31,410 bases of DNA, from the IMG/VR virus record IMGVR_UViG_3300024518_001348, positions 1-31,410 of that record. One strand, given 5' to 3'. The stretch comes from a virus. Below the pieces are notes generated by a model. It was given only the letters and a program-made list of their open reading frames with translations, ran no database searches and was not told where the DNA came from. Below, piece after piece: positions 1 to 26,480 of the stretch (position 1 is the stretch's first letter; every line of letters starts with the position of its first letter). Both the position numbers and the translations under genes were made by a program.

Positions 1-45
1 TCAGAGACAGAACAAGAACAGCTTAAAAAGAAGCATGTATTATGA
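1..45 (+). CDS. C-terminal end of an upstream gene (partial)
   Basis: Frame 1 is open from the first base and ends in TGA at 43-45, encoding the last 14 residues SETEQEQLKKKHVL. The stop overlaps the next start in an ATGA junction (ATG at 42), the same arrangement used at many junctions later in the window, which is the main reason to believe the frame is real. The tail is charged and probably helical. Nothing can be said about function; by position it belongs to the virion/tail gene block. Confidence 0.55.
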   Translation, partial: SETEQEQLKKKHVL

Positions 46-695
46 GTGGTGATTTTCCCTTTATCCGAGTATTCTCCTGGGATACAGATGAGATAGCGAG
101 TCCGGTTGGTAATCGGACTACGCCGGGGGGATCTTTTGCATTCAAGAACATCGTGTCTTCTGGTTGCTCTACTGCTAATCCTAGTAGTCCTACCACCACG
201 TCTGGCGTATTGATGTTTGAGGAGACACAATTTGATCTTACGAATGCTCCTCTGCCGTCGCACTTAGAATCTAAAGTAGCAGCAATTACATTTAATGTTG
301 CCACCAGCGGTACGGCTATTTCAGACCTTCGCTTGTTCGTGTCTGACGACAGTGCTTTTCAAGGAAGTGCAGACGAAGGACTAGACAGAGCATTCGTACA
401 GTTCGCTGCCAGTGGTAGCTTCTGGGCTTATAGCAGTGAGATGCCTTCGGGGGCCGTAGAGCGTCTTCCGCTTGTGGTTCCTGCTATTGCAAACGTACTA
501 CGACAAGATGGCACCGCTGGGCTTGTTGGAGAGACCGACGCAAATTCATCTGAGTTTGTGTACTTGAATTTGGTGATACCTTTGGGCACGCCGTTGGGCT
601 CCTACGGGGTATGTGGATCTGGGCTGCTGAGGCTTGGATTAACTTTTAACTATTGGTGCAACGACTTCATTTTGGAGTTCGGAGACAATGGTTAG
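42..695 (+). CDS. Putative virion structural protein, beta-rich, 217 aa
   Basis: I do not recognise a family. The 217-residue product is rich in Ser, Gly, Thr and short alternating hydrophobic stretches, has almost no long helices, signal peptide or membrane segment, and contains seven Ser-Gly dipeptides, a trait shared with the large structural proteins downstream. A middle section (about residues 75-130: AAITFNVATSGTAISDLRLF, then a variable loop and FVQFAASGSFWAY) reads like a small beta-sandwich. The ATG at 42 follows an A/G-rich stretch (AAAAAGAAG) and overlaps the previous stop as ATGA, while an in-frame TAA at 24-26 rules out a longer start. By position it is probably a tail or fibre-associated protein; this is inference from context only. 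Confidence 0.6.
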   Translation: MSGDFPFIRVFSWDTDEIASPVGNRTTPGGSFAFKNIVSSGCSTANPSSPTTTSGVLMFEETQFDLTNAPLPSHLESKVAAITFNVATSGTAISDLRLFVSDDSAFQGSADEGLDRAFVQFAASGSFWAYSSEMPSGAVERLPLVVPAIANVLRQDGTAGLVGETDANSSEFVYLNLVIPLGTPLGSYGVCGSGLLRLGLTFNYWCNDFILEFGDNG

Positions 696-745
696 TGTAT
701 TATTTGCTGGGCCATCCCGGTCCATTCGACGTTCGAAAAACATGT

Positions 746-751
746 AGGAGG
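746..751 (+). promoter_or_regulatory. Strong Shine-Dalgarno site for the 61-aa gene
   Basis: AGGAGG at 746-751 lies six bases before the ATG at 758. It is one of the two strongest ribosome binding sites in the window (the other precedes 26522) and fixes the start of an otherwise unremarkable small frame. Confidence 0.85.
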
Positions 752-757
752 TAAGCT

Positions 758-943
758 ATGGCTACTTTTAACGCTACTAGCAGCACGAACAACGCAAACC
801 AAGTCCTTTGGGGCTGGAGCACTAAGCTCGTATGGCACACCGACCGCAAGGTCACTGGTGCTGCTCGCGGTGCGGAAGTCCAGGCTGTAGAGAATCTTGG
901 TGTTGGTGTTGCAAGTGGGGATCCTTTCACTTTACTAACGTAA
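758..943 (+). CDS. Small probable virion protein, 61 aa
   Basis: A 61-residue protein starting MATFNATSSTNNANQVLWGW, with no recognised domain, no signal peptide and no membrane helix. Asn/Thr/Ser/Ala-rich ends flank a central basic, tryptophan-containing part (LWGWSTKLVWHTDRK). Reality is supported by a near-perfect AGGAGG ribosome site and by a perfect 15-bp hairpin terminator only 21 bases after its stop, so it is the last gene of its transcript and is probably made in large amounts. The 62-base gap before it holds no recognisable sigma-70 promoter. High expression and position suggest an abundant small virion component (decoration or tail-associated), but nothing in the sequence proves this. 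Confidence 0.7.
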   Translation: MATFNATSSTNNANQVLWGWSTKLVWHTDRKVTGAARGAEVQAVENLGVGVASGDPFTLLT

Positions 944-964
944 TCTGATTGATTCCTGACAAAA

Positions 965-1010
965 TAAGGGCTGTCATCCGTTTCTGGATGACAGCCCTTA
1001 GTTTATTATT
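965..1010 (+). terminator. Intrinsic terminator, perfect 15-bp stem
   Basis: TAAGGGCTGTCATCC (965-979) pairs exactly with GGATGACAGCCCTTA (986-1000) around a six-base loop, followed by the T-rich run GTTTATTATT. The left flank is A-rich (ACAAAA), so weak termination of antisense transcription is also possible. It separates the highly expressible 61-aa gene from the adhesin block starting at 1055. Confidence 0.88.
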
Positions 1011-1054
1011 AGATGGAACGTAGCCAAGTGGTTTAGTTCCAGGAGTAAGGATAA

Positions 1055-1540
1055 ATGGTAAAAGCAAGCTTTGAGCATGAAGGCAATTCTGGCCTTCTAA
1101 CGGTTGTAACACACTTCAACAAAACCATCGAGATTGCGTGCGAGAAACGGGACGACGAAAAGTTCCGTCTAGGCGGCACAGCGATCAACGAGGTTATTGT
1201 TTATGAAGGGCTCATGCTTCGTATGCCTGAAGACCCGCTCTCTGCTCATTTTAGAGCATTTCGTTCAGAAGAAGTTTACTTTGAGAGCACTGGTGTTCTG
1301 TCTCCGGAAGAATGGGACGCAGCCGACCTACACTGTTATGTGACTGAATATTACAGTCTTGATATGGAAGGTAAGGCTCCTGGCTGGTTTGTCAGCAAGG
1401 CTCCGATTAGCGATTCTCATTATCTGTTTGTCAATATGGATATAACAGACGGTGGTGGCAACGTGGTTAAGCGGTATAGAATTTCTCCATTTACCGGAGA
1501 GTATAAAGTGATGGAGGGACTACATGCCCAACCTAATTAA
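1055..1540 (+). CDS. Hypothetical structural-region protein, 161 aa
   Basis: No family recognised. The product is a mixed alpha/beta soluble protein of 161 residues with an acidic middle and no signal peptide or membrane helix; the C-terminal part (LFVNMDITDGGGNVVKRYRI) looks like a beta-hairpin. It has only one Ser-Gly dipeptide, unlike its neighbours, so it may be an assembly factor or connector rather than an exposed adhesin. The ATG is preceded by AGGAGTAAGG at 1041-1050. Its last 17 bases overlap the start of the giant LamG gene, whose ribosome site lies inside this frame, so the two are probably translated together and may act together. Confidence 0.7.
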   Translation: MVKASFEHEGNSGLLTVVTHFNKTIEIACEKRDDEKFRLGGTAINEVIVYEGLMLRMPEDPLSAHFRAFRSEEVYFESTGVLSPEEWDAADLHCYVTEYYSLDMEGKAPGWFVSKAPISDSHYLFVNMDITDGGGNVVKRYRISPFTGEYKVMEGLHAQPN

Positions 1541-4500
1541 TGATGGCTCCCTTGTAGGATTCTGGCCTCTACACGAACCGAGTGGAGCACCGTTTTTCAA
1601 GAATTATTCGCCCGCATACGCGAAGTATCCCAGTGGTATTTCGTTTGATATGCAAGTGGTTACTGCCGCCAGTGTTGCAAGAGAAGAACAGTCGTCGTTT
1701 TGGCCCGGAGGCATAGAGTTCATGAATCCCGAATCTGGTACTTTGATTCGTGGGTATAGTGTCGGTGGTCACTGGAAAACCAATATTGATTCATCGCCCT
1801 TTAGTAAATATCTAGCCATGGGCGGTGGCGGTAGACAACAATCAGAACAATGTTTGTCATTGCCTATTGCGAATAGTGGATTCACTGTTGGCGTTTGGGC
1901 GTATCCTAATAGTGATGGTTATGCCGTTGATGCAACGACATTTACTTCAACTGCATCAAACCTAAGTGCTAATAACACATGGTCTGTAGCGATGGCGAGA
2001 GCCCACGCTCTTATTGGACAATTTTCAGCATATACCAATATTGGTGGTTGGTATATGGGGGTATCTGGTCTTTTGGATCATGGTGCTCAATATAACAATC
2101 ATGCTGGTGAAGGATTGGGTGCTTATGTTTCCATGACAAAAGCCAGTAACTCTGCTCCAGATTTACTTCTGGAAGTTCCTATTGAGTCGGGTCGTTATAC
2201 TCACTTAACGATGTCGTATCGTCGCGATCCTGCTGGGGGATCAGTTCATCAATTAGTTCTCTACAAAGACGGTCGTGTTGCGGCTAGTGGTACAACTAAT
2301 GATAATTTATCGTTATCAAACACTAATCTTATCAGTAGCACTAATAGTCGTGCGTTAGCTATTGGTGCATGTGACCCAGAAGTAACAACAGGTTTTGCTA
2401 ATCACTATGACAATACAAGTGGTTGGAATAATTTAGTCTCTGGTGTTTATCACTTCCGTCGTGTCTTAGACGAAGGTGAAATTCTGGATATGCATGAACG
2501 TGGTGGTCTTGCTTTTGAAGAAGCTCTTGTGCTTCCTACAGAAGAGGTTACGTTAACTGATCCTGATTTAGTGGCATATTATCCTGTGTTTGAAACGCTG
2601 TATGGTGACGTTAGCATGCATCACAGGCCGCTAATTAGTAACTTTGACATGGGATATGCTGGTCTAGGAACAGTACCTACCACTGGTCCGTTTGGTGGTG
2701 GCAGCATCTATAACGATAGTGCAAATGACTCTATTGTTCATGCTGCCAATAGTGGCGTATGTTACGATCTTCTAAGTAACGGTAGTTGGACTATTGGCCT
2801 AAATGTTTCTACTCTTAATGGTTCTACTAGAGAATCAAACATGTTGTTCTCTTGGGGTTCCGTAACAGCAGAAGAGACTTCGGCTTTACCTGTTACTCAT
2901 CCATTGAGTAGTAATACAGCGGGCATTTGTTGCACGTCTAGTGGAGTTACTAATCAACACCGTCACGTTATTGAGATATATTCAATTGGATCGGAATCTG
3001 ATACTCCGTCCATTCTTGTATTTAACATTGATGGCTTTAAAGAGTTTTATGATGGGGCCGTTAGCCATTTAAGCCTTGCGTATGATGACAGCACAAAGGG
3101 TGTAGCCGCATATCTGAATGGCGTACAACAAGGTAGTGGTACATTACCGCACTCGTTAACAGATCAGTTAATGCGTGTCACTGGTAGTGGGTATCCGCTA
3201 TTATTTGGCAATGGTGTTCAAGATACAATTCTTGACAATTCTACTCGTGGAGTACATGACAACGCTAGTACTGATGCTTCCCTTGGACAAATGTTCATGG
3301 TCAAAAGAGCTTTGTTGCCAGCAGAAATACGTGCTATTGCTACAAGTGGAATTGACTTTACGCCTATTTATCGTTCTCATCATGATACGAGATTGGTTGG
3401 GTATTGGCCAGCTAGTGATTTCAAGATGGGCGATATCATTGTATCTGATCAAGCACGCTGTTGGAAAGAAGTGCCGGGTGATCTGGTTCGTGGTGATGCT
3501 TTTGCTAAGCAAGACCGTTGGTATGGTCGTGACTTGACAACCAACAGTACAAACATTTGGTACAACAACGGTGTTGCAAGATATGACCAATTTGGCATTA
3601 GGGATCTTCCGCCCGAATTAGCTAGTGAAGGTAATCTTGGTATTACTTCTGGTACATATACAGTTAGAGGTGGCAGTGCTGGTACGGCAGACGTTCCGGA
3701 CGCCAATGATGTTCAGTCGTCTATTGGTAACGTATCGTCTAGACATAAAGCTAACTTTGAAAGACGTAACGGAACCCTGGTAAAACCTCAAAGTCAGCTT
3801 AATGAATTTGTACTATCGTATGAAGTAACTCCCAGTGGCGACATTCCCGCAACTGTTGTTGGTCTTAATAGTATCGCTGGGGGTCCAGCACATAATTCTT
3901 TACTACACATGTATGGTGTAGATGGTGGCAGTGATACCAGATCATACCTAACCACACTAGAAGCCGGATCTGGTTCTGGCGTAAGCTTGGTGTGGTTAGG
4001 AGAGGATGCTACTCCGTTAGTGTCTGGCAACTTGCCGTATGGTGTACCTAGTCGTGTATTACTACATGGTAAATTTGACATACCTAATCAAACAAATACG
4101 CCATTTAATACTGCGGGTGCTGCCCCCTACAGTGTTAGTTTGTGGATTGACGGCGAGTTGATCCATAGACGCCATATGACTGCTAGTTCTGCTGCACTAT
4201 GGAGTGCAAGTGTTCCAATTGACTTAACGCCCATGTTGTCGTTTGGTGGTATTGTTGGTAACACGCTTAGTTATACAACTCAGTTTACTAATCTAGATAG
4301 TGGCTTAGGTGACATTTATCTACGCAACATGTTTATGATGCGTGGTGTGTTTTTTAAAGATGAAATTGAAGCACTAGCGACTAGCGGCATTCAAACAAAA
4401 ACCATTAGTGGATTTTCTAATCAGCAGCCAACGACACAGGTTAGTATTGCTGACTCTAATCTCGTAGGATACTATAGATTCAATGGTTTTGCTGGTGGAG

Positions 4501-6515
4501 GTTCTGGAACATCAGATCTTAGCTTGAATGCCAATCATCTATTTGGAGCACAGCAGAGTCTATATGAAAACAGTCCAGGTACCGCTAACGAGGGTGCCGC
4601 CAATCTTCGTGTGATTGCGGGACCGTTAGCACAATCTGATCTTGGTATTCAGTGTAGTGGATTTACATACCACGATGATAATCCACCCACAACTTCATCT
4701 CCTCACAATATGCCGCCTTTCATGGCGTCAGGCACTAGGTTTAATTCACCAGATAGTAGTTTTTCAGTTGGTTTCTTTTATATCAAGAAGAACGACGTAG
4801 CAGCTAGTCACTTTGATGCTATTGTTTCTTATGGTACAACTCCTGGTGGGCTGAGTGCTGATACTGGCACAGACGTTAACTTTGGATGGATGATTGGCCA
4901 GGACTCGTCAGAAAATATGAAGATGGTTATTTCTCTAGATGGAAATATGTATCTTGATAACTCTAGTAATGCCGCTCAAGCTGGTCAGCTTGTTGTGGGT
5001 ACTTTTGGAGAAGGCGGTTCTCTTTATGAAGACTTCAGACAATGGGAACAGTATCGTGCTGGTCACCATCAGATGCCCCGTCTTGACTCATGGAGTCACT
5101 ATTGTTGGGTGTACGATTCAGACGCAAGAATAGTTAATCATTATGTCAATGGTACATTGATTGACTTTAAGGCAATGAAGGACGGGAAGAACCCGCAGAT
5201 TCCTGCTGAAGAAGCTCGTTACTTAACGTTCATGCAGCACACGTCTGATCCGTGGGTAAATGCCGCAACGGTTTGTCATGACCAAGTGGGCGTTATGACT
5301 GATTTCTTCTATTTTGATGATGCATTAACAGAAGAAGAAGTTAGGTATATTTCACGAAACGGTATTGATAGTGCTACTGGTACAGTGACCAGTGGCGTTA
5401 TTGGTGGCTATGTGCGTGGTCAAGACACTGGATCTGGTATCGTTGGCGGCTTTACTCGTGGTCAAGATACTGGCTCTGGCTTATTCGGTGGTTTCATGCC
5501 TGGTGGCGTTGAGAGTAGTGGTCTGTTCGGTGGTTATGTGTCTGGTGTTGTCTTTGGTGATGGTACTGTTGGTGGTTGGATTCGTGGTCTAGATGACGTA
5601 TCTGGTATCATGGGTGGCTACATGCTCGGCGTTGATGTTGGATCAGGTTCTATCGCTGGTTACATTCGTGGTCAAGAGGTTGGATCGGGTCACTTTGGCG
5701 GAATGATCTTTGCCTCTGAGGTGTCTAGTGGTGTCCTTGGTGGACTTATGTTCGCGTCTGACCAAGCCAGTGGAGTCTTTGGTGGCTTCATGCTAGGTGG
5801 TCTACAGAGTAACTTTGAGTTTGACGCTGGATTCACTGTTGACGTACTGGCAGCAAAAGACTTTGATGCACAGCTTGAAATTGCGAAAACGGTTGCCTCG
5901 GACTTTGATGCTAAGGTTGTCATTTTCCAAGACGAGATACCTCCTCTAGTAGACATCATCATTCCCGATGCGTCTGTTAGTGGTTTGGTTCCTCCGTTCA
6001 ATCAGTACTTCATTGCCAAGGCTTCTGGTCAACAAGGCAAGACTATCAATTCTACTAAGTGGACGTTTGGTGACTTTACCCCGACTGAAACGGTTGCGGA
6101 AAGTGGTGCTGGGTGTTATCCCGTTCAGCACATGTATGCGTCTAGTGGATTCTTCATTGCGAAGTTTGAAGCCATTGATTCTGATGGCATGCACTCTTCT
6201 GCTACAAGAATCATCAGTGCCGCGTCTGGTATTGATCCGGTTCTGATTAGTCTGTCTGGTGTACCTCGTTCTGGTAATGCTGGCTTGATTGTTGATTTCG
6301 ATACGGATATCAATATCCTGCCGCCTGGAGTAAGTGTCTCAACTCAGTTGCTCCACTTCGATGATGGACAGACGACTATTGCATTTAGCCCGACACACAA
6401 CTATACGCAACCTGGAACGTACAAGCCGATCTGGTGTGTACGAGACTCGCGTGGTGTGATCTGGTGTGACAGCCTGGAGGCAGGTAATGACTTCCTCGAA
6501 AGTGGAGGGGCGTAA
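1524..6515 (+). CDS. Giant multidomain adhesin-like tail protein (4 LamG-like, glycine repeats, PKD)
   Basis: This 1663-residue protein is modular. Four concanavalin-A/LamG_3-like units start near residues 6, 346, 621 and 977; each opens with a strand such as LVGFWPLHE, LVAYYPVF, LVGYWPAS or LVGYYRFN and closes with the LamG_3-type tail seen as LDEGEILDMHERGG, LLPAEIRAIATSG, FFKDEIEALATSG and LTEEEVRYISRNG. Residues 1290-1429 are ten 14-residue glycine repeats, 1432-1473 three FDA-type 14-residue repeats, and the end carries two PKD-like domains (about 1510 WTFGDF and 1605 LLHFDDG). LamG and PKD domains typically bind carbohydrates or act as spacers on exposed proteins, so a host-binding tail fibre or tip is likely. 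The start follows GGAGGG at 1513-1518. The middle is AT-rich (20 of 60 G/C at 2281-2340), suggesting exchange. Confidence 0.85.
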   Translation: MPNLINDGSLVGFWPLHEPSGAPFFKNYSPAYAKYPSGISFDMQVVTAASVAREEQSSFWPGGIEFMNPESGTLIRGYSVGGHWKTNIDSSPFSKYLAMGGGGRQQSEQCLSLPIANSGFTVGVWAYPNSDGYAVDATTFTSTASNLSANNTWSVAMARAHALIGQFSAYTNIGGWYMGVSGLLDHGAQYNNHAGEGLGAYVSMTKASNSAPDLLLEVPIESGRYTHLTMSYRRDPAGGSVHQLVLYKDGRVAASGTTNDNLSLSNTNLISSTNSRALAIGACDPEVTTGFANHYDNTSGWNNLVSGVYHFRRVLDEGEILDMHERGGLAFEEALVLPTEEVTLTDPDLVAYYPVFETLYGDVSMHHRPLISNFDMGYAGLGTVPTTGPFGGGSIYNDSANDSIVHAANSGVCYDLLSNGSWTIGLNVSTLNGSTRESNMLFSWGSVTAEETSALPVTHPLSSNTAGICCTSSGVTNQHRHVIEIYSIGSESDTPSILVFNIDGFKEFYDGAVSHLSLAYDDSTKGVAAYLNGVQQGSGTLPHSLTDQLMRVTGSGYPLLFGNGVQDTILDNSTRGVHDNASTDASLGQMFMVKRALLPAEIRAIATSGIDFTPIYRSHHDTRLVGYWPASDFKMGDIIVSDQARCWKEVPGDLVRGDAFAKQDRWYGRDLTTNSTNIWYNNGVARYDQFGIRDLPPELASEGNLGITSGTYTVRGGSAGTADVPDANDVQSSIGNVSSRHKANFERRNGTLVKPQSQLNEFVLSYEVTPSGDIPATVVGLNSIAGGPAHNSLLHMYGVDGGSDTRSYLTTLEAGSGSGVSLVWLGEDATPLVSGNLPYGVPSRVLLHGKFDIPNQTNTPFNTAGAAPYSVSLWIDGELIHRRHMTASSAALWSASVPIDLTPMLSFGGIVGNTLSYTTQFTNLDSGLGDIYLRNMFMMRGVFFKDEIEALATSGIQTKTISGFSNQQPTTQVSIADSNLVGYYRFNGFAGGGSGTSDLSLNANHLFGAQQSLYENSPGTANEGAANLRVIAGPLAQSDLGIQCSGFTYHDDNPPTTSSPHNMPPFMASGTRFNSPDSSFSVGFFYIKKNDVAASHFDAIVSYGTTPGGLSADTGTDVNFGWMIGQDSSENMKMVISLDGNMYLDNSSNAAQAGQLVVGTFGEGGSLYEDFRQWEQYRAGHHQMPRLDSWSHYCWVYDSDARIVNHYVNGTLIDFKAMKDGKNPQIPAEEARYLTFMQHTSDPWVNAATVCHDQVGVMTDFFYFDDALTEEEVRYISRNGIDSATGTVTSGVIGGYVRGQDTGSGIVGGFTRGQDTGSGLFGGFMPGGVESSGLFGGYVSGVVFGDGTVGGWIRGLDDVSGIMGGYMLGVDVGSGSIAGYIRGQEVGSGHFGGMIFASEVSSGVLGGLMFASDQASGVFGGFMLGGLQSNFEFDAGFTVDVLAAKDFDAQLEIAKTVASDFDAKVVIFQDEIPPLVDIIIPDASVSGLVPPFNQYFIAKASGQQGKTINSTKWTFGDFTPTETVAESGAGCYPVQHMYASSGFFIAKFEAIDSDGMHSSATRIISAASGIDPVLISLSGVPRSGNAGLIVDFDTDINILPPGVSVSTQLLHFDDGQTTIAFSPTHNYTQPGTYKPIWCVRDSRGVIWCDSLEAGNDFLESGGA
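5391..5810 (+). repeat. Ten tandem 42-bp units encoding 14-residue glycine repeats
   Basis: Ten consecutive in-frame units of exactly 42 bases encode residues 1290-1429 of the LamG protein. The pattern is S-G-h-h-G-G-h-h-x-G-x-x-x-x (h hydrophobic), for example SGIVGGFTRGQDTG, SGLFGGFMPGGVES and SGIMGGYMLGVDVG. Every unit keeps the length; unit 5 starts DG, unit 7 has AG for GG, and units 8 and 9 replace the third glycine position by FA. DNA similarity is highest between units 1 and 2; the others have diverged at synonymous and variable positions. Confidence 0.93.
5817..5942 (+). repeat. Three 42-bp units encoding FDA-type 14-residue repeats
   Basis: Directly after the glycine repeats, residues 1432-1473 divide into EFDAGFTVDVLAAK, DFDAQLEIAKTVAS and DFDAKVVIFQDEIP. 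Each begins acidic-FDA and is followed by alternating hydrophobic residues. The period equals that of the preceding array, but the motif is different. The third unit merges into the linker to the PKD-like domains, so its end is less certain. Confidence 0.65.
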
Positions 6516-6518
6516 GGT

Positions 6519-9500
6519 ATGAGTATTATTGTTTCAGACGGCATTGTTGTTAGTGGTGTAGGTGTACCCCTTAACGGCATCGAGTGGCCCTCTGGTCAGT
6601 TCGGCAGCAACGAACCAGGATCGCAGCTATGTGCGTTCCTGTCGTCGGTGAATGCCACATTTGGTTTCAATCTAACACCGCACTCGTTCCAGACGGAATG
6701 GGTGCCGTGTGGAGATCCGTGTACATTCCACGGTGCTTCCGGCCAACTGCCAGATATCGGGCACTCTCTAGAACTCTTCGTAGGTGATTTCTTTTTTCGA
6801 GGAAAGGTTACTCACTCTGATTATACAGCTAGCACTGGTGGTACCATTGTCAGTGTTACAGTAGAAGACAATAGACACGAACTGAGACGAGTCAAGATTC
6901 ATACGGAAGACCTAGGGGAAGATGCACCCAGTGGTGTTGTGTCTGTAGCTAGAGGGTATCGAGTAGTCAATGGTCTAACTGATGTTGGCGGTGACCCTAA
7001 CGATCCTAACATTAAAGAGTATCGTCGTATCTTACAGTTCGGTGCTACATACAGTCAGGTTTTAGAGGCTATTGACCTACATTTCAATGAGGGCAAGTGC
7101 TCTGTTCCCGTGTCTGATCTGCCTACAGTGGAGCAGCTTGAAAAGAACATTGGCGGTAGTGTTGAGGCCCTTCGTTTCCAGTTTAACTTAACGCAATTGG
7201 ACGAGGTGTTATCTCGTATCCTTCTAGATACTGGCTATGATTGGTACTGGAGTATGGATGCTCAGCGTATCAACCTGATCAATAAGAAAACAACGTTTGA
7301 TATCAGTGAGTCAGACATCCTTGATCTGGTATCTGAGTTTGGTAGTACCAGTGGATTGAATGAAACAAAGCAGCTTGGTTTTGGCCAGGATGTTGTACCT
7401 GACCCTACACGCTTCCGTGTCTTGGGTGGTCACCAAGAAGGCTTCATCAACTCGCATCTGTTAAGTCCTATTGATGGTCTTGACACGTTGGCCTTAGATA
7501 ATATTATTGACGTAGACAGCACGCAAGATGGCGTGGTGTTTGAGCCAGCATGGAACAAGCTAACTGTTGGCTTCTATGATGCTGACGGTTTCTACCGTAC
7601 GTATATCCCTCAGGAAAAAGAACTACAGCTTGCCTTGGCGGGTATTGAACAGTGGACATACTACAAGATTTATCAAACAACGAGTCCGCTCAGTGATCCT
7701 GCTGGTTATGGTTTCACGTCTGATGCTGGGTCTATTGCTGCCCAACATTCATCATTTCAAAGTCGTTTCGATCCGGTGATGCCGTTGGCTGGTCTAGCGA
7801 CTGGTGCTGCTGAGTCTGGCATTCGTGTTATCAACAACCGTAGAGACGAAGAACAGAACTGGGTACTGTCTTTTTATGCAAGACTACGTGATCATGCATC
7901 TAGACATTACGGTCGTTCGTATGTTCTTGAAGGACTGTTGTTTGACGATGCCGAAGGACTGTACAATCTCGTTGGTGCCGCATGGGCTAACGTCGAGAAC
8001 CAAGTAGAGGGATTCACCTTGTCTCCTTCTGGTACTGTAGGATCCAGTGGTGTTTTCGTTGAAGACTACGAGATCAATAGAGACCTGGGTCCGGTCAGTC
8101 CGTTTATCACTGATGACTTCCGTGTCAGTGCTCACTGTCGTTTGCCATCCGATACGGTCTATGGACCACAGGGCGATAGTAACCCTGCTGGTTTTGGCAA
8201 CTGGACAGAAGACGCACCTCCGTTTAACCCTACCGGAGATGGTAGCCACTATATTCCTGTAGAGTTGACTATCGTGGGTAACCGCGTTATCAATCCTCGC
8301 AGCGACGAACTATACTCTTTTGAAGACTATCCTGAAGGAACCATTTGGTGTCAATTACCCATCAACGCTGGAGCCTCTGGCGGTCTGTCGATTGACAACA
8401 CAATTTCTTCACTGGCCACACTAGTAACTACTAACGCAAAGCTAGACGCTGAGACAACACTAGACATCATCAACCCTGCGGTTGTTCTTAATGTTTACAG
8501 TGCTCTATCCGGCGTAGCTATTCCTGTGCAGGCTCGTAATCGTTATGGACAGTCTTACCCGAGTCAGTGGGTACTAGGCGACCTTCATTACGAGCGTGAC
8601 GAAGATGTACAATTAGACGATCAGTTTGTGCCTTGGGCATTCTCTCCTGTGGGTGATGAAACGTCTCTACAGGTTATGACTGATCGTGCAGTCCGCAGAG
8701 CTGAGGGCAAAATTGTTCCCAAGAGTTCCTCACGCTATGCCGACTTCAATCAGGTTGGATTGCCGCTTCTGTCGTTTGATGCTTTTGCCGAACAAGGCAT
8801 TGGTCCTTCGGGATCATATGGAGAGATCAGTCACGGCGTGAGCGAAACCAATATCTCATTTGGCACCGAGGGATTCCTGACTAGATACAAGATCCAGTCG
8901 TACTTCCCGAAGTTCGGTCGTGAGGCTCCGCTAGGTGAACGTGTGCGTGCTGTCCTGAATGGTATTCTGAATCCCATTGACTTCAGCGACTTGGCACTAC
9001 TCAATCCTAACCCTGGACCTCCGACCAATCCAACCCTTCCGGGTGATCCGTTTGTTCCGCCGCTGTTCTTTGATCGCGAAGAACGAGCAGTTCGCGTCAC
9101 GATTACTGAAGTGAACAATGTATTTACTCTTTCTAGCACTGCTGGAAGTGAAGTAGACGAACGTTATAGAGGTATCGATCAAAACCTATATACGAAACCA
9201 TCACCTAATGCTGGTGCTAATGTTGATTTCCAAGAAGGTGCGATTTGCATTGACGGCTTCTTGAACATTAACGATGAGGCCATGTATCATACAGACGAGT
9301 TTGAGCTACCCGGAGGGAATACTATCCTCAGGTACTTTACTCAAGGTCGTCCGTTTGGTAACGGTACGATTGTTGAAGTTGAACGCACTAACGTAGCTGA
9401 CAGTACTACGTATGATGTTACGATTGTTGACCCTACTGCTTTAGCAGAAGGAACAGAGCGTGCTGTATTTGGCGTTGAGGTTCTCAATGGCTCTGTCGCC

Positions 9501-9869
9501 GTAGGCGACAAGACCACTCTTGCCGTGCAGGGGGATGCACCAGTTTCTCCTGGCACAAACAACGGCACAATTTTCATTAATGGTACTGTTTCTGATTCCG
9601 CTGGTGTTACTCCGGTTGAAATTGTGTCTGTTTCGAGTATTGGTACAGCTAATGCAAAAGCGACATGCAAACAGTTAGATTCCTTAGGGTGCCTTGCGTC
9701 GTCTGGCACAACATACACAGATGTTATCCCTATCCCCTTTAGGCAGTTTGCTTCGTCTGGAGATCGAGGCTTCTTGGCTAGTGCCGTTGTACCTAGTGGT
9801 GGCTTTGGTGCCAGTGCAACCGTTAGCTTCATTGAGATCGTGAAGCCTGCCTTCTTCCGCCACAGTTAA
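6519..9869 (+). CDS. Large tail protein, possible baseplate hub, 1116 aa
   Basis: The N-terminal half resembles tail-hub proteins of the gp27/gpD type. A compact barrel-like segment near residues 85-130 (LFVGDFFFRGKVTHSDY, then VSVTVEDNRHELRR) is followed around 225-270 by a helix-plus-strand unit (FNLTQLDEVLSRILLDTGYD, then QRINLINKK), the arrangement by which hub proteins are often recognised. This is pattern recognition, not an alignment. The C-terminal third is beta-rich with Ig-like or carbohydrate-module character. There are about 14 Ser-Gly dipeptides. The start has GGAGGGG at 6504-6510, eight bases upstream, and lies three bases after the LamG stop, so the two are co-translated. An alternative is a receptor-binding or tail-spike protein. 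Confidence 0.7.
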   Translation: MSIIVSDGIVVSGVGVPLNGIEWPSGQFGSNEPGSQLCAFLSSVNATFGFNLTPHSFQTEWVPCGDPCTFHGASGQLPDIGHSLELFVGDFFFRGKVTHSDYTASTGGTIVSVTVEDNRHELRRVKIHTEDLGEDAPSGVVSVARGYRVVNGLTDVGGDPNDPNIKEYRRILQFGATYSQVLEAIDLHFNEGKCSVPVSDLPTVEQLEKNIGGSVEALRFQFNLTQLDEVLSRILLDTGYDWYWSMDAQRINLINKKTTFDISESDILDLVSEFGSTSGLNETKQLGFGQDVVPDPTRFRVLGGHQEGFINSHLLSPIDGLDTLALDNIIDVDSTQDGVVFEPAWNKLTVGFYDADGFYRTYIPQEKELQLALAGIEQWTYYKIYQTTSPLSDPAGYGFTSDAGSIAAQHSSFQSRFDPVMPLAGLATGAAESGIRVINNRRDEEQNWVLSFYARLRDHASRHYGRSYVLEGLLFDDAEGLYNLVGAAWANVENQVEGFTLSPSGTVGSSGVFVEDYEINRDLGPVSPFITDDFRVSAHCRLPSDTVYGPQGDSNPAGFGNWTEDAPPFNPTGDGSHYIPVELTIVGNRVINPRSDELYSFEDYPEGTIWCQLPINAGASGGLSIDNTISSLATLVTTNAKLDAETTLDIINPAVVLNVYSALSGVAIPVQARNRYGQSYPSQWVLGDLHYERDEDVQLDDQFVPWAFSPVGDETSLQVMTDRAVRRAEGKIVPKSSSRYADFNQVGLPLLSFDAFAEQGIGPSGSYGEISHGVSETNISFGTEGFLTRYKIQSYFPKFGREAPLGERVRAVLNGILNPIDFSDLALLNPNPGPPTNPTLPGDPFVPPLFFDREERAVRVTITEVNNVFTLSSTAGSEVDERYRGIDQNLYTKPSPNAGANVDFQEGAICIDGFLNINDEAMYHTDEFELPGGNTILRYFTQGRPFGNGTIVEVERTNVADSTTYDVTIVDPTALAEGTERAVFGVEVLNGSVAVGDKTTLAVQGDAPVSPGTNNGTIFINGTVSDSAGVTPVEIVSVSSIGTANAKATCKQLDSLGCLASSGTTYTDVIPIPFRQFASSGDRGFLASAVVPSGGFGASATVSFIEIVKPAFFRHS

Positions 9870-9873
9870 TCAA

Positions 9874-11997
9874 ATGGTATTAGAATCAGGAATATTACCT
9901 TACGACTATGACGCTGGTCGTGGACCCTTCAGGGTTGAGACTCCATCTTGTAATGGTTCACCTATTGGTCTATCTGGTACTTTACTAGAGCAAGCACAGT
10001 TTGCTGTGACGGCAGAACTTCGTCGTTGGCGAGGTAATGATGATCCATCTGCTCTGAGTGATTTTAACGTCTATCGACACGAGGACTCTCCCGCTAGTGG
10101 GCCGTATGAACCCACTACAAGTGGTGCTAATCTTGCATCAAGTTCTAATCCCGGCAGCATGATTTTTGTTGATCATATTCTTGAGACAAGAGCTGCCATG
10201 GAGGATATTTTTGAGTACATGGCTTATGATTCTTCGTATAATGAAGAACAGATGTTGACTTCTTGGTTGAGTGCGTTATACCCGAATAACCCAAGTGGTC
10301 AACTTGGTTTTTATACACACAGATCTCCTTCTGCTGTTGGTGCTATCACTGAGATTTCAGATGAAGTACTTGGGTCTTCTGGCGTACTGTATGACGTGGA
10401 CATTGGAGAGGTTATGTATAATCCTTTCCCGCATATTGGTCAACACTCTTACGGTAACGCTCACGGTACTGGTCCTGCTGGTGAGAACGCTGTTTTTGAT
10501 ATTAGAATCGAACCGTTTTTCCCTGCGTTTCAAAAAACAAACGGTACGCTAATTGGCTTAAATGGTCGTGAGCCTGACCCTATCAATGTTGATAACAATG
10601 GGGGAGCAATTTACGACGTTGATCCCATATCGTCTGGCACTGTACGTTTAGATGGTTACATGCTGACGGGAAACTCCGAATACTATCTTGGTCGTAACGG
10701 AAACAATTTTGATCGAGTAGAAGACTTTACGCCGTTTGCGGACAGTACACGTAGTCCGGATGTTTTTGCAGAGCGTGGCATGTCAACGACTCGTGAATAC
10801 CTAACTCCCACGACAGAAGGGTCTGGTATTTATCGTGTTGCTGTTAGAAATCCTCGTTCGGTATTTCCAAACACCACTATTGAATCGGGTGTTACTAGCT
10901 TCTGGCCTACGTTTGAAGACTATTGGCCTTCTGGCCAAAATAGTTCTGCTGGCAATCTCAACTTAGGATACGAAGTTTTTGATGATGCTCTTTGGATGAC
11001 CGACATTCCGTTTGCTGGTGCTACCAATGTATCTCGTTATCCATCAGGTCTTGCTGTGTTGTCTCCGTTTACAGGACATCGTATGTGGACGAGATTTGCC
11101 GAATTAGTTAATGAAACTCATGCGACTCTTGGTAAGGAAAACAATTGGCCATTACAGACGGGATTAGAATATCCTAGTAGTAATACGGTCATCAGAATAT
11201 CTGAAGAGTTTGAGTTTATGGAACATCCAGATGGTAGTTTCATGAACGCTGCTTCTGGACGTATTGCTTTTATTGAGTATGATGATAATCTAGACTATGT
11301 GGACACTCACATGTCTACTAGTACTACTACCGTAGGCATTCCAGATTTTTTCCCAACAGGTGGAACAACTACCACTGACCTTCGTGACATGTGTTTTGAT
11401 GGAACCTTTTATTGGGTTACTAACGGACAGCATGTTGGTTTCGACTTGTGGAAATTCGATGATACGTTTTCTTTTATTGATAAGTATAACAACAGACCAG
11501 CCGCTTGGGTTGGTCCCCATACACTGTTTGGATTAAGTAGATGGAGTGTTGGTGCTATCGGTGGATCTCCATATGTATATCACGGATACTCTGGTGTTAG
11601 TTTGTCTTTGTCTGGTCCTATTACACAAAGCGGTATATTCCCTTTAGAGAATTTCACAGGAAGTCCTGGTGATCCAGGAGAACATGCTGCTGGTGGGTTT
11701 GACCTTGGGCAACGTAAAGACATTGATGGTGCGGCATTCTTTGGATTCCAGAGGTTTGCCAGAATCATGGACTTGTACGAAGTCACCAACGGCACGCACA
11801 CGCCCAATGGTGTTTATGCAATCGTTAGATGGAACAATGATTTTTCTGTATTGAGTGATGGTATTATTGCCTTGGTACGCATTGAAGAAGAACCAAACAG
11901 GTGGGCCGTAAAGGCGGCTTACAAACTGTCAAATAGTTCAAACGGTTTTTTCCCAGGTGACCCACAGCGAATGGAGATCTTTCACAAAGACATCTAG
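9874..11997 (+). CDS. Structural protein of the tail region, 707 aa
   Basis: A 707-residue protein of unknown family, beta-rich, acidic and aromatic, without signal peptide or membrane helix, with about 15 Ser-Gly dipeptides. The section around residues 455-560 contains strand-turn patterns such as GRIAFIEYDDNLDYVDTHM and DLRDMCFDGTFYWVTNGQ followed by LWKFDDTFSFIDKY, which read like consecutive beta-propeller blades. It starts four bases after the previous stop without a good ribosome site, so translation is probably coupled. The gene is AT-rich (20 of 60 G/C at 10201-10260) compared with replication genes, similar to the LamG gene. A tail fibre, baseplate or receptor-binding part is likely from position; no catalytic motif is evident. 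Confidence 0.68.
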   Translation: MVLESGILPYDYDAGRGPFRVETPSCNGSPIGLSGTLLEQAQFAVTAELRRWRGNDDPSALSDFNVYRHEDSPASGPYEPTTSGANLASSSNPGSMIFVDHILETRAAMEDIFEYMAYDSSYNEEQMLTSWLSALYPNNPSGQLGFYTHRSPSAVGAITEISDEVLGSSGVLYDVDIGEVMYNPFPHIGQHSYGNAHGTGPAGENAVFDIRIEPFFPAFQKTNGTLIGLNGREPDPINVDNNGGAIYDVDPISSGTVRLDGYMLTGNSEYYLGRNGNNFDRVEDFTPFADSTRSPDVFAERGMSTTREYLTPTTEGSGIYRVAVRNPRSVFPNTTIESGVTSFWPTFEDYWPSGQNSSAGNLNLGYEVFDDALWMTDIPFAGATNVSRYPSGLAVLSPFTGHRMWTRFAELVNETHATLGKENNWPLQTGLEYPSSNTVIRISEEFEFMEHPDGSFMNAASGRIAFIEYDDNLDYVDTHMSTSTTTVGIPDFFPTGGTTTTDLRDMCFDGTFYWVTNGQHVGFDLWKFDDTFSFIDKYNNRPAAWVGPHTLFGLSRWSVGAIGGSPYVYHGYSGVSLSLSGPITQSGIFPLENFTGSPGDPGEHAAGGFDLGQRKDIDGAAFFGFQRFARIMDLYEVTNGTHTPNGVYAIVRWNNDFSVLSDGIIALVRIEEEPNRWAVKAAYKLSNSSNGFFPGDPQRMEIFHKDI

Positions 11998-13398: not shown

Positions 13399-13826
13399 AG
13401 TACCCTTCTCTTACTACTCCGGACGTTGAGCACGACGGGGCCAACCTACTCGCAGAATTCATTTGGTTGAATCGCGACATTCGTGCTGACATTTACCCGT
13501 GGCGAGGTCATAATGGTAAGGAGTGGGGACGGCTAGTTGCTGCTTTGAAAAAACTAATGGGGGATTCCTATGGTTTATCAGCAGGACAACTGGCCTTTTA
13601 CATTTGGAAATGTAAGCCGCACCACATCAGCCCACAGCAGTTCGCCAAGATGGCAGTTGTTGCCCGTCAGCTTTTCGAGTCATACGACTTGGAGCAAGTA
13701 TCACGATTCTACACAGACTGGCAAAAGGAACTCGCCTCGTCCGGTCTTGAAAAAGTTAAGTACAAAGAAGCAAAACCGAAAACACTGTTTTCATTTTTGA
13801 GAGAACTAGAGAATGGCAAAGCGTAA
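13395..13826 (+). CDS. Unknown replication-operon protein, 143 aa
   Basis: A mostly alpha-helical 143-residue protein with many aromatic residues (FIWLNRDIRADIYPW, QLAFYIWKC), ending in a basic linker and the helix TLFSFLRELENGKA. Start and end overlap both neighbours (4 bases with the previous gene, 14 with recA), so expression is coupled to the recombinase. It has no visible Shine-Dalgarno of its own. No family recognised. Size, helicity and position directly before recA would fit a mediator, loader or primosome accessory protein; this is speculation from context. Confidence 0.68.
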   Translation: MKYPSLTTPDVEHDGANLLAEFIWLNRDIRADIYPWRGHNGKEWGRLVAALKKLMGDSYGLSAGQLAFYIWKCKPHHISPQQFAKMAVVARQLFESYDLEQVSRFYTDWQKELASSGLEKVKYKEAKPKTLFSFLRELENGKA

Positions 13827-15000
13827 GAAACCTGGACTGAACATTGATATCGGGGAGCAGACGACTCCCACCTTTGGCTTTTTCAAGCAGGAGGTAGAAC
13901 AAGATGGCGTACAAGCCATGTCGGCAGAGGAGGTTGGTGATCCCAATCCTAATCGTAGTGGGTCATATAACTTAGACTACGATTTAGCTGTGCCATTTCC
14001 TGAGGGGCGTATCACCGAGATCTTCGGTGCAGAGGGAACCTGCAAGACAACGTTGTCACTAGAGGTAGCTGGTCGTGCTATCCAGGCTGGCAAGACTGTA
14101 CTATATGTCAACATGGAGAGAAACCTGAACCTATCTCTTATGCGGACGGTTCGAACGCTTCGTCCCTATCTTGATATTGCCGTTGAGCACGCAACAGCCC
14201 TGGCCGCTGGCAAGAAGTCTCCGCATCCCGAATGTCCCCTATGGATCGTCAATGCTTCCAATGGTGAGCAGGCTTTTGAAGCAATGCGTAAGTTTGCCGG
14301 TATGGTTCCTAACGGAGTGGCCATCCTAGACTCTATCGACGCCGCTCAACCGCAGTCAGTGATGGCTGGAGAGATCGGTGACTCTACCGTGGGCAAGCTG
14401 GCCAAGCTCATGTCTGATGCCATGCGTAAGCTCATCGGTGTGTCTGAGCAAAACAAGGTCGCCCTCGTGTTCGTCAATCAGATCCGCGATAAGATCACCA
14501 TGTATGGTGACCCTACGGATACCCCTGGCGGCTATGCTCTTAAGTTCTATGCTTCGCAGCGTATCCGACTCTTCACGCCCCGCAAGACCGATTGGATCCT
14601 GGACTCTGACAAGGAGCGTATCGGCAGCCTAATCAGATACAAGGTAATCAAAAACAAGGTAGCCCCCGATGGTAACGAAGGTGTGTTCCCTATCCTTTTC
14701 AAGAACGGTATTTTCCGCGAGCAGGAACTTGTGACTCAGGCGTGCAACTTTGGTGTCCTGCGTATGGGTGGCAAAGGTGGCAAGCAAGTCTTCCTGCCTA
14801 AGATCGACCGTGACACTGGTGAGTACATTATGGATGGCGAGGAAATCGCCTCCACTTGTATGAGTCAGTTCAATGCTGCTCGCAGACTCTTGATGGACAG
14901 TGTACTATTCAACAAGCTGGACGCAGAAGTACAAAGCTTATTCATTCCTGGTGGACATGATCCCATTGAAGATCTAGTAGATGAAATTCAAGACGCTTAA
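13813..15000 (+). CDS. recA: RecA-family strand-exchange recombinase, 395 aa
   Basis: RecA/UvsX proteins form ATP-dependent filaments on single-stranded DNA and pair it with homologous duplex. The core motifs are in order: Walker A GAEGTCKTT at residues 72-80, catalytic glutamate E102 in NMER, Walker B VAILD at 169-173, and the RecA signature VALVFVNQIRDKI at 216-228 followed by TDTPGGYALKFYASQR (235-250). Length is close to that of phage UvsX and slightly longer than bacterial RecA (about 350). The Walker A has Cys in place of the usual Ser/Gly before the Lys. G/C use is high for the window (34 of 60 at 14521-14580). The gene overlaps its neighbours on both sides and probably serves recombination-dependent replication and repair. 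Confidence 0.95.
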   Translation: MAKRKKPGLNIDIGEQTTPTFGFFKQEVEQDGVQAMSAEEVGDPNPNRSGSYNLDYDLAVPFPEGRITEIFGAEGTCKTTLSLEVAGRAIQAGKTVLYVNMERNLNLSLMRTVRTLRPYLDIAVEHATALAAGKKSPHPECPLWIVNASNGEQAFEAMRKFAGMVPNGVAILDSIDAAQPQSVMAGEIGDSTVGKLAKLMSDAMRKLIGVSEQNKVALVFVNQIRDKITMYGDPTDTPGGYALKFYASQRIRLFTPRKTDWILDSDKERIGSLIRYKVIKNKVAPDGNEGVFPILFKNGIFREQELVTQACNFGVLRMGGKGGKQVFLPKIDRDTGEYIMDGEEIASTCMSQFNAARRLLMDSVLFNKLDAEVQSLFIPGGHDPIEDLVDEIQDA

Positions 15001-15397
15001 TGGCCGCGAGATTCGTATGGAGATTCTACCCGAAAGGTATCCCGTACGGACACGCGAACAGTGCAAGTCGGCTGGGCAGTACATGCTCGGTCGCTTGCTA
15101 CGTAGCATCTATGGTTTTCACGCATTGATTTTGGAAGAGTTTCCTCTACCGGAAGAACGACTTTACTTAGATTTTTTCATGCCGCATAACAAACTGGGCT
15201 TTGAGTATCAAGGCATACAACACGATAAGTTTGTTAAGCTATTCCACAGTGACAAGAAAGGGTTTGAAAAATCTAAGGCACGAGACGCCAGAAAGAGACT
15301 CTGGTGCGAGACAAACGAAATTACATTAATCGAAGTACGTGGTAACGTGTCTGTCGAAGAACTACAAAAACTAATCGAAGAAGCACGAAATGAGTAA
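14981..15397 (+). CDS. Small PD-(D/E)XK-type endonuclease, Vsr/DUF559-like
   Basis: The 138-residue protein carries the hallmark of small Vsr/DUF559-like nucleases: LYLDFFMP with D64, then GFEYQGIQH with E75 and Q77, then the basic helix KSKARDARKRLWCETNEI and a final strand TLIEV. In this superfamily the Asp and the E-x-Q/K dyad hold Mg2+ for phosphodiester cleavage; the substrate cannot be read from sequence. It overlaps recA by 20 bases and the helicase gene by 8, so it belongs to the recombination/replication operon, and roles such as junction resolution or processing of branched or nicked DNA are reasonable guesses. The N-terminal 50 residues are a helical extension typical of this group. 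Confidence 0.75.
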   Translation: MKFKTLNGREIRMEILPERYPVRTREQCKSAGQYMLGRLLRSIYGFHALILEEFPLPEERLYLDFFMPHNKLGFEYQGIQHDKFVKLFHSDKKGFEKSKARDARKRLWCETNEITLIEVRGNVSVEELQKLIEEARNE

Positions 15398-16838
15398 CGT
15401 TGCAGCAGAGAAGATATTCCTAGCAGGAGTTGTACAGCATCCAGACAAGCTGTTTGAGTTTGTTGAATATCTTGGAGAGGAAGACTTTCAACATACGGCT
15501 ACCCGTATGACCTTTGAGGCACTACGGTCTCTGGTTATTGATAAAGAAGCTCAGAAGGTCACGAAGGCCAAGCTTGTGGCGGAAGCTAAAGCATTGGGTC
15601 ATCATAACTACTTGTCTGCCACGAGGAACGGTGAGTGGATTGATGAACTGATTGCCGAAGAAGTGAGCATTGGTGAGGTTGACAATCATTTTCTTGAGGT
15701 CAAGAGACAGGCACTCAAGGACCAATATACTCAAGCCTTTGTTGAGCAAAGAGACTATCTATCAGCGACCAACGATTCGTTGTCAGTGATGATTGGTAAG
15801 GTTGAAAACGCCATCATCAGTAAGGTCAATATTATCGACAAGGGCGAACACGCCATTGAAGATATTCGTGAAGGGTTTGAAGAGTTCATTAATACTCTTG
15901 CTGATGACCCTGGACATATGGGGCTTGATCTAGGTTATCCTTTGTGGCAAGAGTGTATCGGTCAACTGAGAAATGGCTCTATGACATTCTTGGTTGGTAC
16001 TACTGGCAGTGGTAAGTCTCAGTTTGGTATGCGTGCCGCTGTCACCGCTGCACGCAAGGGGCTACCAGTTCTTTATCTTGATAGCGAGCTAAGCAAGCAA
16101 GACCAGTGGGTGCGTATTGCAGCCATGGTTGCTAGGGTTCCGTCAGAGTATATTGAAACTGGTTTCTGGCGTATGTCAGAAAAAGAACTAATTGATAACA
16201 ACGTCACAGATCCGAAGATTCGTGATGAGATCATGGCTCATGGTCGCAAGCTTAAAGAGCCGCGTCTTTGGGAAGCAGTGAAGAAGATGCCTATTTTCTA
16301 TCAGTCGATTAGTGGTCTCAGCGTTCCTGACGTGCTACCGCATATCAGAAGGTGGCTACTGACCCACGTTAAGCCCGACCGTGATACTCGTGTACCGCAG
16401 TGCTTGATTGTGTATGACTATATCAAGCTGGCTATGACCAACGAGATTAGTCGTGGTGTCCTGCAAGAATGGCAACAGAATGGTTTACACATTGCGGCGT
16501 TGCATGACTTTATCAACAAGTACAATGTGCCGCTTATTGGGTTTGGCCAAACTAACAACGAATTGATCTCTGGAATCAAGGCTGTCGCTGGTGGTAAACG
16601 CATCAGTGAGAACGTAGATTCTGTCAGTTACCTCAAAAGAAAGACTGACGCTGAACGTGCTGACGATGGCAACGGTACTCACAAGATGGAGAACTTTAAG
16701 TCTAGGTTTGGCAAAGGACTATGGGGTAGTTACATTAATTACAACGCAGACCTTAGTTGTGGTTATTTCGAAGAACTGGAGATTGGTCATGTAACACCTC
16801 CTCAACAAGATAGTGACGACGATGACGACGACGAATGA
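15390..16838 (+). CDS. dnaB: DnaB-like replicative helicase, 482 aa
   Basis: DnaB-type hexameric helicases unwind DNA at the fork. Residues 1-120 match the helical DnaB N-terminal domain (AEKIFLAGVVQHPDKLFEF, then DFQHTATRMTFEALRSL). The C-terminal RecA-like motor has Walker A GTTGSGKS at 203-210, the catalytic glutamate in LDSEL (E233), and Walker B CLIVYDYIKL with D343; FGQTNNE (about 392-398) is the sensor/arginine-loop region. Length is that of bacterial DnaB (about 470). The protein ends in a run of Asp residues (DSDDDDDDE), whose repetitive codons hold the start of the primase gene in another frame. Coupled to the nuclease (8-base overlap) and primase (26-base overlap). Confidence 0.95.
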   Translation: MSNVAAEKIFLAGVVQHPDKLFEFVEYLGEEDFQHTATRMTFEALRSLVIDKEAQKVTKAKLVAEAKALGHHNYLSATRNGEWIDELIAEEVSIGEVDNHFLEVKRQALKDQYTQAFVEQRDYLSATNDSLSVMIGKVENAIISKVNIIDKGEHAIEDIREGFEEFINTLADDPGHMGLDLGYPLWQECIGQLRNGSMTFLVGTTGSGKSQFGMRAAVTAARKGLPVLYLDSELSKQDQWVRIAAMVARVPSEYIETGFWRMSEKELIDNNVTDPKIRDEIMAHGRKLKEPRLWEAVKKMPIFYQSISGLSVPDVLPHIRRWLLTHVKPDRDTRVPQCLIVYDYIKLAMTNEISRGVLQEWQQNGLHIAALHDFINKYNVPLIGFGQTNNELISGIKAVAGGKRISENVDSVSYLKRKTDAERADDGNGTHKMENFKSRFGKGLWGSYINYNADLSCGYFEELEIGHVTPPQQDSDDDDDDE

Positions 16839-17895
16839 AAAGAAGCAAACGATTCGTAACCATGCGAATCGCAACATTACTTATCTGCTAGACAGACTAG
16901 AGATTGAGTTTGATGATCGTGGAGACGGTCTAATTCAATCTACGTGTCAGTGCATGCAGCACGGGGGAGACCGTAACAACGTGACGGCATGGAGTTGGCG
17001 AACCGATCTTGGTAAATGGGTATGTTGGACGCATCACTGTGAGGAGAGTCGTGGCAATGATATCTTCGGCTTAGTGAGTAGTGTTAAAGGTATCAACTTT
17101 CGTGAGACCGTTGAATGGATTACCACACAGCTTGAGAACAAAAACGTGGACCTTGATGAGAAGGTATCTGATCCAATCAATATTCATCGTGGTAACAAGT
17201 TACACATTCATGAACCGCTAAAAGAGGATAACCTAAAGTTCCTCATGCCGGATCCTCAGTATCTACTGAATCGTGAGTTTGATCTAGAATCATTGCGTAA
17301 ATACGAGGTTGGCCTTTGGAGTCGTCTTGGTACGTACATGCATGATCGTGTCGTGTTCCCTGTTAGAGATCACGAAGGTCACTTGATTGGATATACAGGA
17401 CGTACCATTCATACTCCTGAGTATTTCAAGCAGCGTGACCTCAAGTACATGAAGTGGGTACATGGTCGCCATTACAACAGATGGCCTCAGCGTGGAGACT
17501 TGTTTACTAGCTCCATTCTGTATAACCTACATAATGCTAAACGATACTTGGGCATGAGCAAAAAGCTCATTCTGGTTGAAGGACCGCTAGATGGTATGAA
17601 GTTGGATGAAGCGGGGATCCACAACTGGGTTGCCACACTTGGTACTAGCTTCTGTCATGCTCACAGAACACTACTAATCAAGTATGGTGTTACGGATCTG
17701 TATGTTGCGTACGACAATGATGATCCTGCTAAATACAAGAGTGGAGAAAGCCCCGGTGAAAAAGGATGGGAACGCATGGAGCGTATTGTTGGTGACCTTT
17801 TTCAGTTGCACAGGGTTCTCCTGCCACACGATAAAGACTGTGGCGATCTAAGCACAACTTTACTTCAAGAAATTTTTAAAGGTATCTCATGTTAA
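16813..17895 (+). CDS. dnaG: DnaG-type primase, 360 aa
   Basis: Synthesises RNA primers at the fork. An N-terminal zinc-binding module is visible as C45-x-C47-x2-H50 and C71-x2-H74/H75-C76, around WSWRTDLGKWVCW. The Toprim catalytic core follows: ILVEGPLDGMKLDEAG with E256, and LYVAYDNDD with D301, D303 and D304. At 360 residues it is shorter than bacterial DnaG (about 580) because it lacks a full C-terminal helicase-binding domain, as in many phage primases. The start lies inside the poly-Asp tail of the helicase; ATG at 16813 and at 16822 are both possible and neither has a good ribosome site, so coupling to helicase translation is likely. Confidence 0.93.
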   Translation: MTTMTTTNEKKQTIRNHANRNITYLLDRLEIEFDDRGDGLIQSTCQCMQHGGDRNNVTAWSWRTDLGKWVCWTHHCEESRGNDIFGLVSSVKGINFRETVEWITTQLENKNVDLDEKVSDPINIHRGNKLHIHEPLKEDNLKFLMPDPQYLLNREFDLESLRKYEVGLWSRLGTYMHDRVVFPVRDHEGHLIGYTGRTIHTPEYFKQRDLKYMKWVHGRHYNRWPQRGDLFTSSILYNLHNAKRYLGMSKKLILVEGPLDGMKLDEAGIHNWVATLGTSFCHAHRTLLIKYGVTDLYVAYDNDDPAKYKSGESPGEKGWERMERIVGDLFQLHRVLLPHDKDCGDLSTTLLQEIFKGISC

Positions 17896-18854: not shown

Positions 18855-19441
18855 TGAGAGCACGTATTGGTAAAGATTGGATTGATGCATATTTTGACTA
18901 TGGTGTAGACCGTACCAATAGACGTATCTTTATGTTTGATGGTGTTGACGAAACATCTATTGGTACAGTTATTAAGGGTCTGTATTACATGAATGCAGAG
19001 TCAACGGAAAAGCCTATTGAACTATTCATTGGTTCATTTGGTGGTAGCGAGTACGAAATGTATGCATTGTACGACGTGATCGGTACTCTTCAGGCACCAG
19101 TACATATTACTGCTATTGGCAAATGTATGAGTGCTGCACCATTGTTGGTTGCTCGTGGCGAACCAGGACATAGATACGCTACTCCAAACACTTGGTTCAT
19201 GGTCCATCAGTCGTGGGACGAGTTTGGCATGAAGCGTACGGATGAACTAAAAAAGGACTTAGTTCATTATGATGCAATGGCAAAGAGTTGGTATGCTCTT
19301 ATGGAAAAGCACACCAGCCAAAAGGCCACGTTCTGGAAGAAGCATTGCGAACAGGTTGGTGACAAATACTTTAGTTCTGAGCAGGCCCTAGAGTGGGGTA
19401 TCATTGATCACATTTGGGATCAGAAAGACGGAGAAGAGTAA
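18854..19441 (+). CDS. ClpP-like serine protease, 195 aa
   Basis: The fold and active site of ClpP are recognisable: the SFGGS turn at 61-65 (SPGG in bacterial ClpP), the nucleophile S93 in GKCMSAAPL, H118 in MVHQS, and D170 in the segment GDKYFSSEQALEWGIIDHIW that matches the ClpP Asp region. Length (195) equals bacterial ClpP. ClpP assembles as a double heptamer and needs an AAA+ unfoldase; none is seen here, so it may work with host ClpX/ClpA or alone on unfolded peptides. Phage ClpP-like proteins often mature capsids, but this one sits in the replication operon between a nuclease and a zinc-finger protein, joined by TAATG junctions at both ends. Confidence 0.88.
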   Translation: MRARIGKDWIDAYFDYGVDRTNRRIFMFDGVDETSIGTVIKGLYYMNAESTEKPIELFIGSFGGSEYEMYALYDVIGTLQAPVHITAIGKCMSAAPLLVARGEPGHRYATPNTWFMVHQSWDEFGMKRTDELKKDLVHYDAMAKSWYALMEKHTSQKATFWKKHCEQVGDKYFSSEQALEWGIIDHIWDQKDGEE

Positions 19442-26471: not shown

Positions 26472-26480
26472 AGAAAAAAT

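Follow-up and report, generated by a model that had tools for sequence, protein, structure and literature searches.

A conserved tandem array of 14-residue Ser-Gly units in a tail-tip protein of uncultured phages: a candidate spacer

What kind of structure is encoded by ten tandem glycine-rich units in a phage protein that also carries LamG and PKD domains? The question arises from an initial annotation of the window, by which we mean the whole stretch of 31,410 nucleotides analysed here (IMG/VR virus record IMGVR_UViG_3300024518_001348, positions 1 to 31,410). The array of units that open with Ser-Gly (the SG array) is a real, conserved and uncatalogued repeat in a tail-tip protein, and none of the libraries searched contains its unit. 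The reading that we favour, with middling confidence, is that it most likely forms a beta-solenoid-type spacer within that protein. The features of the locus are collected in Table 1.

Table 1. Layout of the array gene and its neighbour in the window.
Feature	Position	Strand	Remarks
Modular tail protein gene, 1663 aa	1524..6515	+	LamG/ConA-like region, SG array, DFDA units, two PKD domains
LamG/ConA-like region	1524..5378	+	Pfam Laminin_G_3, two stretches; best residues 1178-1273
SG array, ten 14-residue units	5391..5810	+	residues 1290-1429; consensus SGhhGG[YF]hxGxDxG
Three DFDA units	5820..5945	+	FDAGFTVDVLAAKD / FDAQLEIAKTVASD / FDAKVVIFQDEIPP
Two PKD domains	6042..6464	+	residues 1507-1563, 1581-1647; Pfam
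Next gene, 1116 aa	6519..9869	+	conserved together with the array gene among relatives

The segment divides without indels into ten exact 14-residue units, as had been claimed. Units 1-5 are SGVIGGYVRGQDTG SGIVGGFTRGQDTG SGLFGGFMPGGVES SGLFGGYVSGVVFG DGTVGGWIRGLDDV, and units 6-10 are SGIMGGYMLGVDVG SGSIAGYIRGQEVG SGHFGGMIFASEVS SGVLGGLMFASDQA SGVFGGFMLGGLQS. Shifted by 14 residues, the protein has an autocorrelation of 0.476, whereas 10,000 shuffles average 0.137 and never exceed 0.254. A higher periodicity of three units finds no support, with an autocorrelation of 0.42 at lag 42 compared with 0.48 at lag 14. The SG and GG pairs had been described as strict; this holds for the consensus but not for every unit, as unit 5 opens with DG and unit 7 has AG instead of GG. 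In units 8 and 9 an alanine replaces the last glycine. At the DNA level the units are on average only 53% identical, and in this interval Tandem Repeats Finder lists no array. Thus the repeat is old, and has been kept at the level of the protein.

A position profile built from 130 units of 13 genomes reveals which features are kept. Serine is present at position 1 in 89% of units, and glycine at positions 2 and 6 in 98 and 95%, respectively. Position 4 is hydrophobic in 98%, position 7 in 95% (tyrosine or phenylalanine in 72%) and position 8 in 90%. The overall pattern is therefore hydrophobic at 3, 4, 7 and 8, with glycine at 2, 5, 6 and 10, a small residue at 14, and charge at 9 (R/Q/H) and 12 (D/E); glycine occupies position 11 in just 19%. 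The array as a whole has a GRAVY of +0.41, with 31% glycine and 10% charged residues. Both the TCN and AGY codon families encode Ser1, and the residue must therefore be selected. Moreover, a unit is more similar to that at the same position in other genomes (57% identity) than to units at other positions (42%), so these are not drifting copies.

The remainder of the protein is modular. Pfam finds both of the domain types that had been recognized in it, above the curated cut-offs in each case: 41.0 bits against 27.6 for Laminin_G_3 (PF13385), and for PKD 41.1 bits (PF18911, cut-off 27) and 28.9 bits (PF00801, cut-off 23.5). PKD was matched in all 17 relatives scanned. Recurring motifs at residues 12, 349, 624 and 980 suggest that the LamG/ConA-like region comprises about four domain-sized blocks. 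The three DFDA units directly after the SG array were absent from the initial annotation. They have the same 14-residue period but another, amphipathic consensus (FDAxxxxx...D), and are kept across alignments of relatives.

The location of the gene is clearest in the relative G001. The order there is terminase, portal, probable major head protein and tape measure (phrog_4211, E 5e-36), followed by a 501-aa protein with a weak PHROGs tail match, two smaller proteins and further short ORFs, and then the array protein and a 1126-aa protein. The array gene is thus a few ORFs past the tape measure, which places it among the tail-tip genes of a siphovirus-like module. The matches of the tape measure and terminase to large siphoviruses are distant. 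The earlier designation as a tail protein agrees with this position just downstream of the tape measure in relatives, and is well supported by gene order. For the term adhesin the evidence is the LamG-like domains and the gene position, which may point to such a role, and the LamG domains could bind carbohydrate. The next gene in the window probably encodes a tail hub or tip protein, and a profile scan with it matched no family. Elsewhere in the window are genes for a RecA-like protein, a helicase, a primase, the DNA polymerase III alpha subunit and a sigma-like factor. Four glycosyltransferase-like genes (Glycos_transf_1 and _2) lie at 24666-30352, downstream of both the tail genes and those for replication.

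The Ser-Gly dipeptide is also frequent outside the array. In the tail proteins of the window (42-11997), with the array removed, it occurs 69 times against 34.7 expected, i.e. about twice, and in the 501-, 186- and 216-aa proteins of G001 (L259, L260) 22 times against 7.4, about three times. No excess is found in the replication genes (13813-23396), terminase, portal or tape measure. The enrichment in the comparison sets lambda, T4 and T5 is 1.2-1.55.

How general is the SG array? IMG/VR was scanned with the full-length protein, with its C-terminal portion, with the next gene and with a DNA pattern of three units, the last adopted because unit-only alignments were too unspecific for a profile scan of genome contigs; among the genomic matches listed for this pattern, most are unrelated low-complexity glycine-rich frames. 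The scans yielded about 27 distinct relatives, all on uncultured viral contigs or on one contig of a metagenome-assembled genome (MAG), and a search of the cultured-phage collection found none. The MAG contig (L164, 158 kb) is assigned to Hydrogenophaga, and this is either a lead to the host or a binning error. The array protein is encoded directly upstream of the next-gene homologue in 18 of the 20 loci found with the next gene. The other two have <1 kb of upstream sequence each, too short to reveal the array protein, and in one of them this stretch encodes a homing-endonuclease-like ORF. Such ORFs are present near the array and hub genes (L032 1-923, L002 2335-3360).

About 14 members have ten units and about 11 have seven, with nine in L015 and eight in L088, so that a comparison of related phages gives 7, 8, 9 or 10. 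These differences are of whole units. Extra residues are found between the unit cores in relatives, most often after unit 4, and indels are mainly confined to such places. MAFFT set unit-shifted windows back in orthologous register. The constant unit length noted earlier is therefore a property of the window: relatives vary both by whole units and by indels in the loops, and the strict ten-fold length is local. One single-unit duplication is recent, giving units 3 and 4 of L060 and L061, which are 93% identical as DNA in L061; the copy-number tree has little resolution overall. The relative G007 has a 2772-aa protein (L261 1033-9348) with SG arrays of 5, 1 and 7 units and seven reported Laminin_G_3 stretches, in which each array follows a LamG-like domain. 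This supports a spacer module of adjustable length. In L031 (8208-9974) the array ORF has only 589 aa, compared with about 1600 in relatives, and the LamG portion may lie in a gene of its own or in a broken one.

Can the fold be predicted? AlphaFold2 models were calculated for the monomers of residues 1189-1663 (mean pLDDT 42.6) and of the regular seven-unit relative L061 (mean pLDDT 45.2), and the pTM of 0.24 signifies very low confidence. In the first of these the PKD and LamG regions were also poor. Both models place strands in a 14-residue register, but the confidence is so low that the fold of the array is not established by them. The Foldseek hits of the L061 model were mainly left-handed beta-helices and ice-binding solenoids, and no hit reached significance (best E 0.79). 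The earlier proposal of a beta-solenoid thus fits the position profile and the strand register of the two models, albeit at very low confidence, and such a fold is plausible for the array. Pfam and PHROGs were scanned with the array, with its relatives and with an artificial consensus, and NCBIfam with whole proteins. None of these scans matched the array significantly, and single arrays found no match in the sequences of the PDB. An array profile searched against the PDB returned only unrelated proteins at E ≥0.013, and no solved homologue; the hit at E 0.013, the integral membrane protein Yrbe1a, is read as a compositional match. The statement that the unit lies outside known repeat families is borne out in the libraries searched.

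In the explanation that we favour, each 14-residue unit would form a single beta-solenoid or beta-roll rung. The strand would be G-h-h-G-G-[YF]-h, and positions 9-14 (R/Q/H, D, G) an exposed turn. One rung per unit, with the turn at the site of most length variation, is compatible with the position profile. With a rise of about 4.5 Å, ten stacked rungs would generate a short, stiff rod of about 4-5 nm. Such a rod would fix how far the LamG/ConA-like domains stand from the tail hub and the PKD end, and the number of units (7-10) would set its length. We infer the strand and rung structure, the rod shape and the role as spacer from these patterns. A point against this reading is that the predicted strand carries hydrophobic residues on both faces, which a simple soluble monomeric solenoid would not need; an oligomer is assumed.

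The same rungs might instead constitute a receptor-binding surface, presenting similar residues at regular intervals that would hold on to a polymeric ligand, for example a polysaccharide of the surface. A solenoid would space the exposed positions 9 and 12 and the aromatic residue at 7 evenly. Yet the probably exposed positions vary within the array while the core is conserved, and the ConA-like domains of the same protein are likelier binders, so we regard this as unlikely. A linker that is extended or partly disordered, with a weak tendency to beta structure and no defined fold, would account for the low pLDDT throughout the array and for its glycine content, but sits badly with the near-invariant hydrophobic character of positions 4, 7 and 8 and with a period that is fixed across divergent relatives; we consider it improbable. 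Glycine or small residues at 2, 6, 10 and 14 give GxxxGxxxGxxxG in each unit, the spacing of a glycine zipper, and together with the positive GRAVY and abundant glycine this raises the idea that the array is a hydrophobic segment which inserts into the host membrane when the DNA is delivered. Charged residues, chiefly D/E at position 12 and R at position 9, nevertheless recur along the array, the AlphaFold models contain strands and no helices (at low confidence), and no Pfam glycine-zipper family is matched. In siphoviruses the usual channel-forming protein is the tape measure, and a membrane role for the array seems quite unlikely.

Two further readings turn on composition. The array had been compared with the polyglycine-II lattice of gp38 of phage S16 (S16/T2 type), and it is indeed glycine-rich and part of a phage tail protein. 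Polyglycine-II packing requires glycine at about every third residue. The glycines (and small residues) of the SG unit are at 2, 5, 6, 10 and 14, and positions 8 and 11 break the rule, the former being predominantly hydrophobic. PDB sequence searches with the array returned no match to gp38 up to E 10. Thus the comparison fails on glycine spacing, and a lattice of this kind is highly improbable. Alternatively, the Ser-Gly with which each unit opens could be a site of O-glycosylation, making the array a dense glycan scaffold that is modified by the phage's own downstream glycosyltransferases. The array would then be the extreme case of an SG enrichment that reaches two to three times expectation among exposed virion proteins. 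We think this very unlikely.

If the spacer reading is correct, the array would be one more instance of a common theme in phage tails, where length-setting repeat modules are found in the receptor-binding parts. The lineage that carries it consists of phages of 150-183 kb without close cultured members, and the SG unit provides a clean and recognizable marker for their tail-tip gene. At 98-140 residues the array is also a well-defined structural target, and possibly a new type of beta-solenoid.

How does the array compare with known systems? The RTX nonapeptide repeat (HemolysinCabind), GGxGxDxUx, forms a beta-roll and resembles the SG unit in its GG and GxD elements. However, the period of the SG array is 14 rather than 9 and its motif is GGxxxGxD in place of GGxGxD, with no Pfam match. 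The polyglycine-II sandwich of S16 and PP01 gp38 is likewise glycine-rich and located at the receptor end of a phage tail; it differs in glycine spacing, in sequence and in order, as its glycine motifs flank hypervariable loops (PMC12892980) whereas the SG units are in tandem. Another likeness is offered by the YadA-type head repeats of trimeric autotransporter adhesins, which form a left-handed parallel beta-roll (LPBR) with a 14-residue period and insertions between layers, and whose copy number is thought to tune length (PMC9543794). The two share 14-residue repeats, a glycine-containing beta unit (putative in the SG array) and indels between layers. The YadA motif GxNSVAIGAxSxAx is unmatched by the SG array in any register tried by eye, there is no Pfam match to the YadA head up to E 10, and the one belongs to an autotransporter while the other is in a phage tail. 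A further array is found in the Aeromonas phage 13AC503A (OQ622094, Casjensviridae; L267 1-3324), with about twenty 14-residue units (APYGLTAGYLPDLV) that form the C-terminal end of a Phage-tail_3 protein, and in eight further Aeromonas phage records. Like the SG array it has a 14-residue period and lies at the end of a tail protein, and its core G-L-T-A-G-Y-L can be set beside G-h-h-[GA]-G-Y-h; it lacks the SG start and contains proline, and an hhalign comparison of the two profiles gives a probability of 2.7%, which is not significant. The Aeromonas array is probably an analogue of the SG array, and the resemblance may be convergent. This second, apparently unrelated array is a hint that rungs of 14 residues may have more than one origin.
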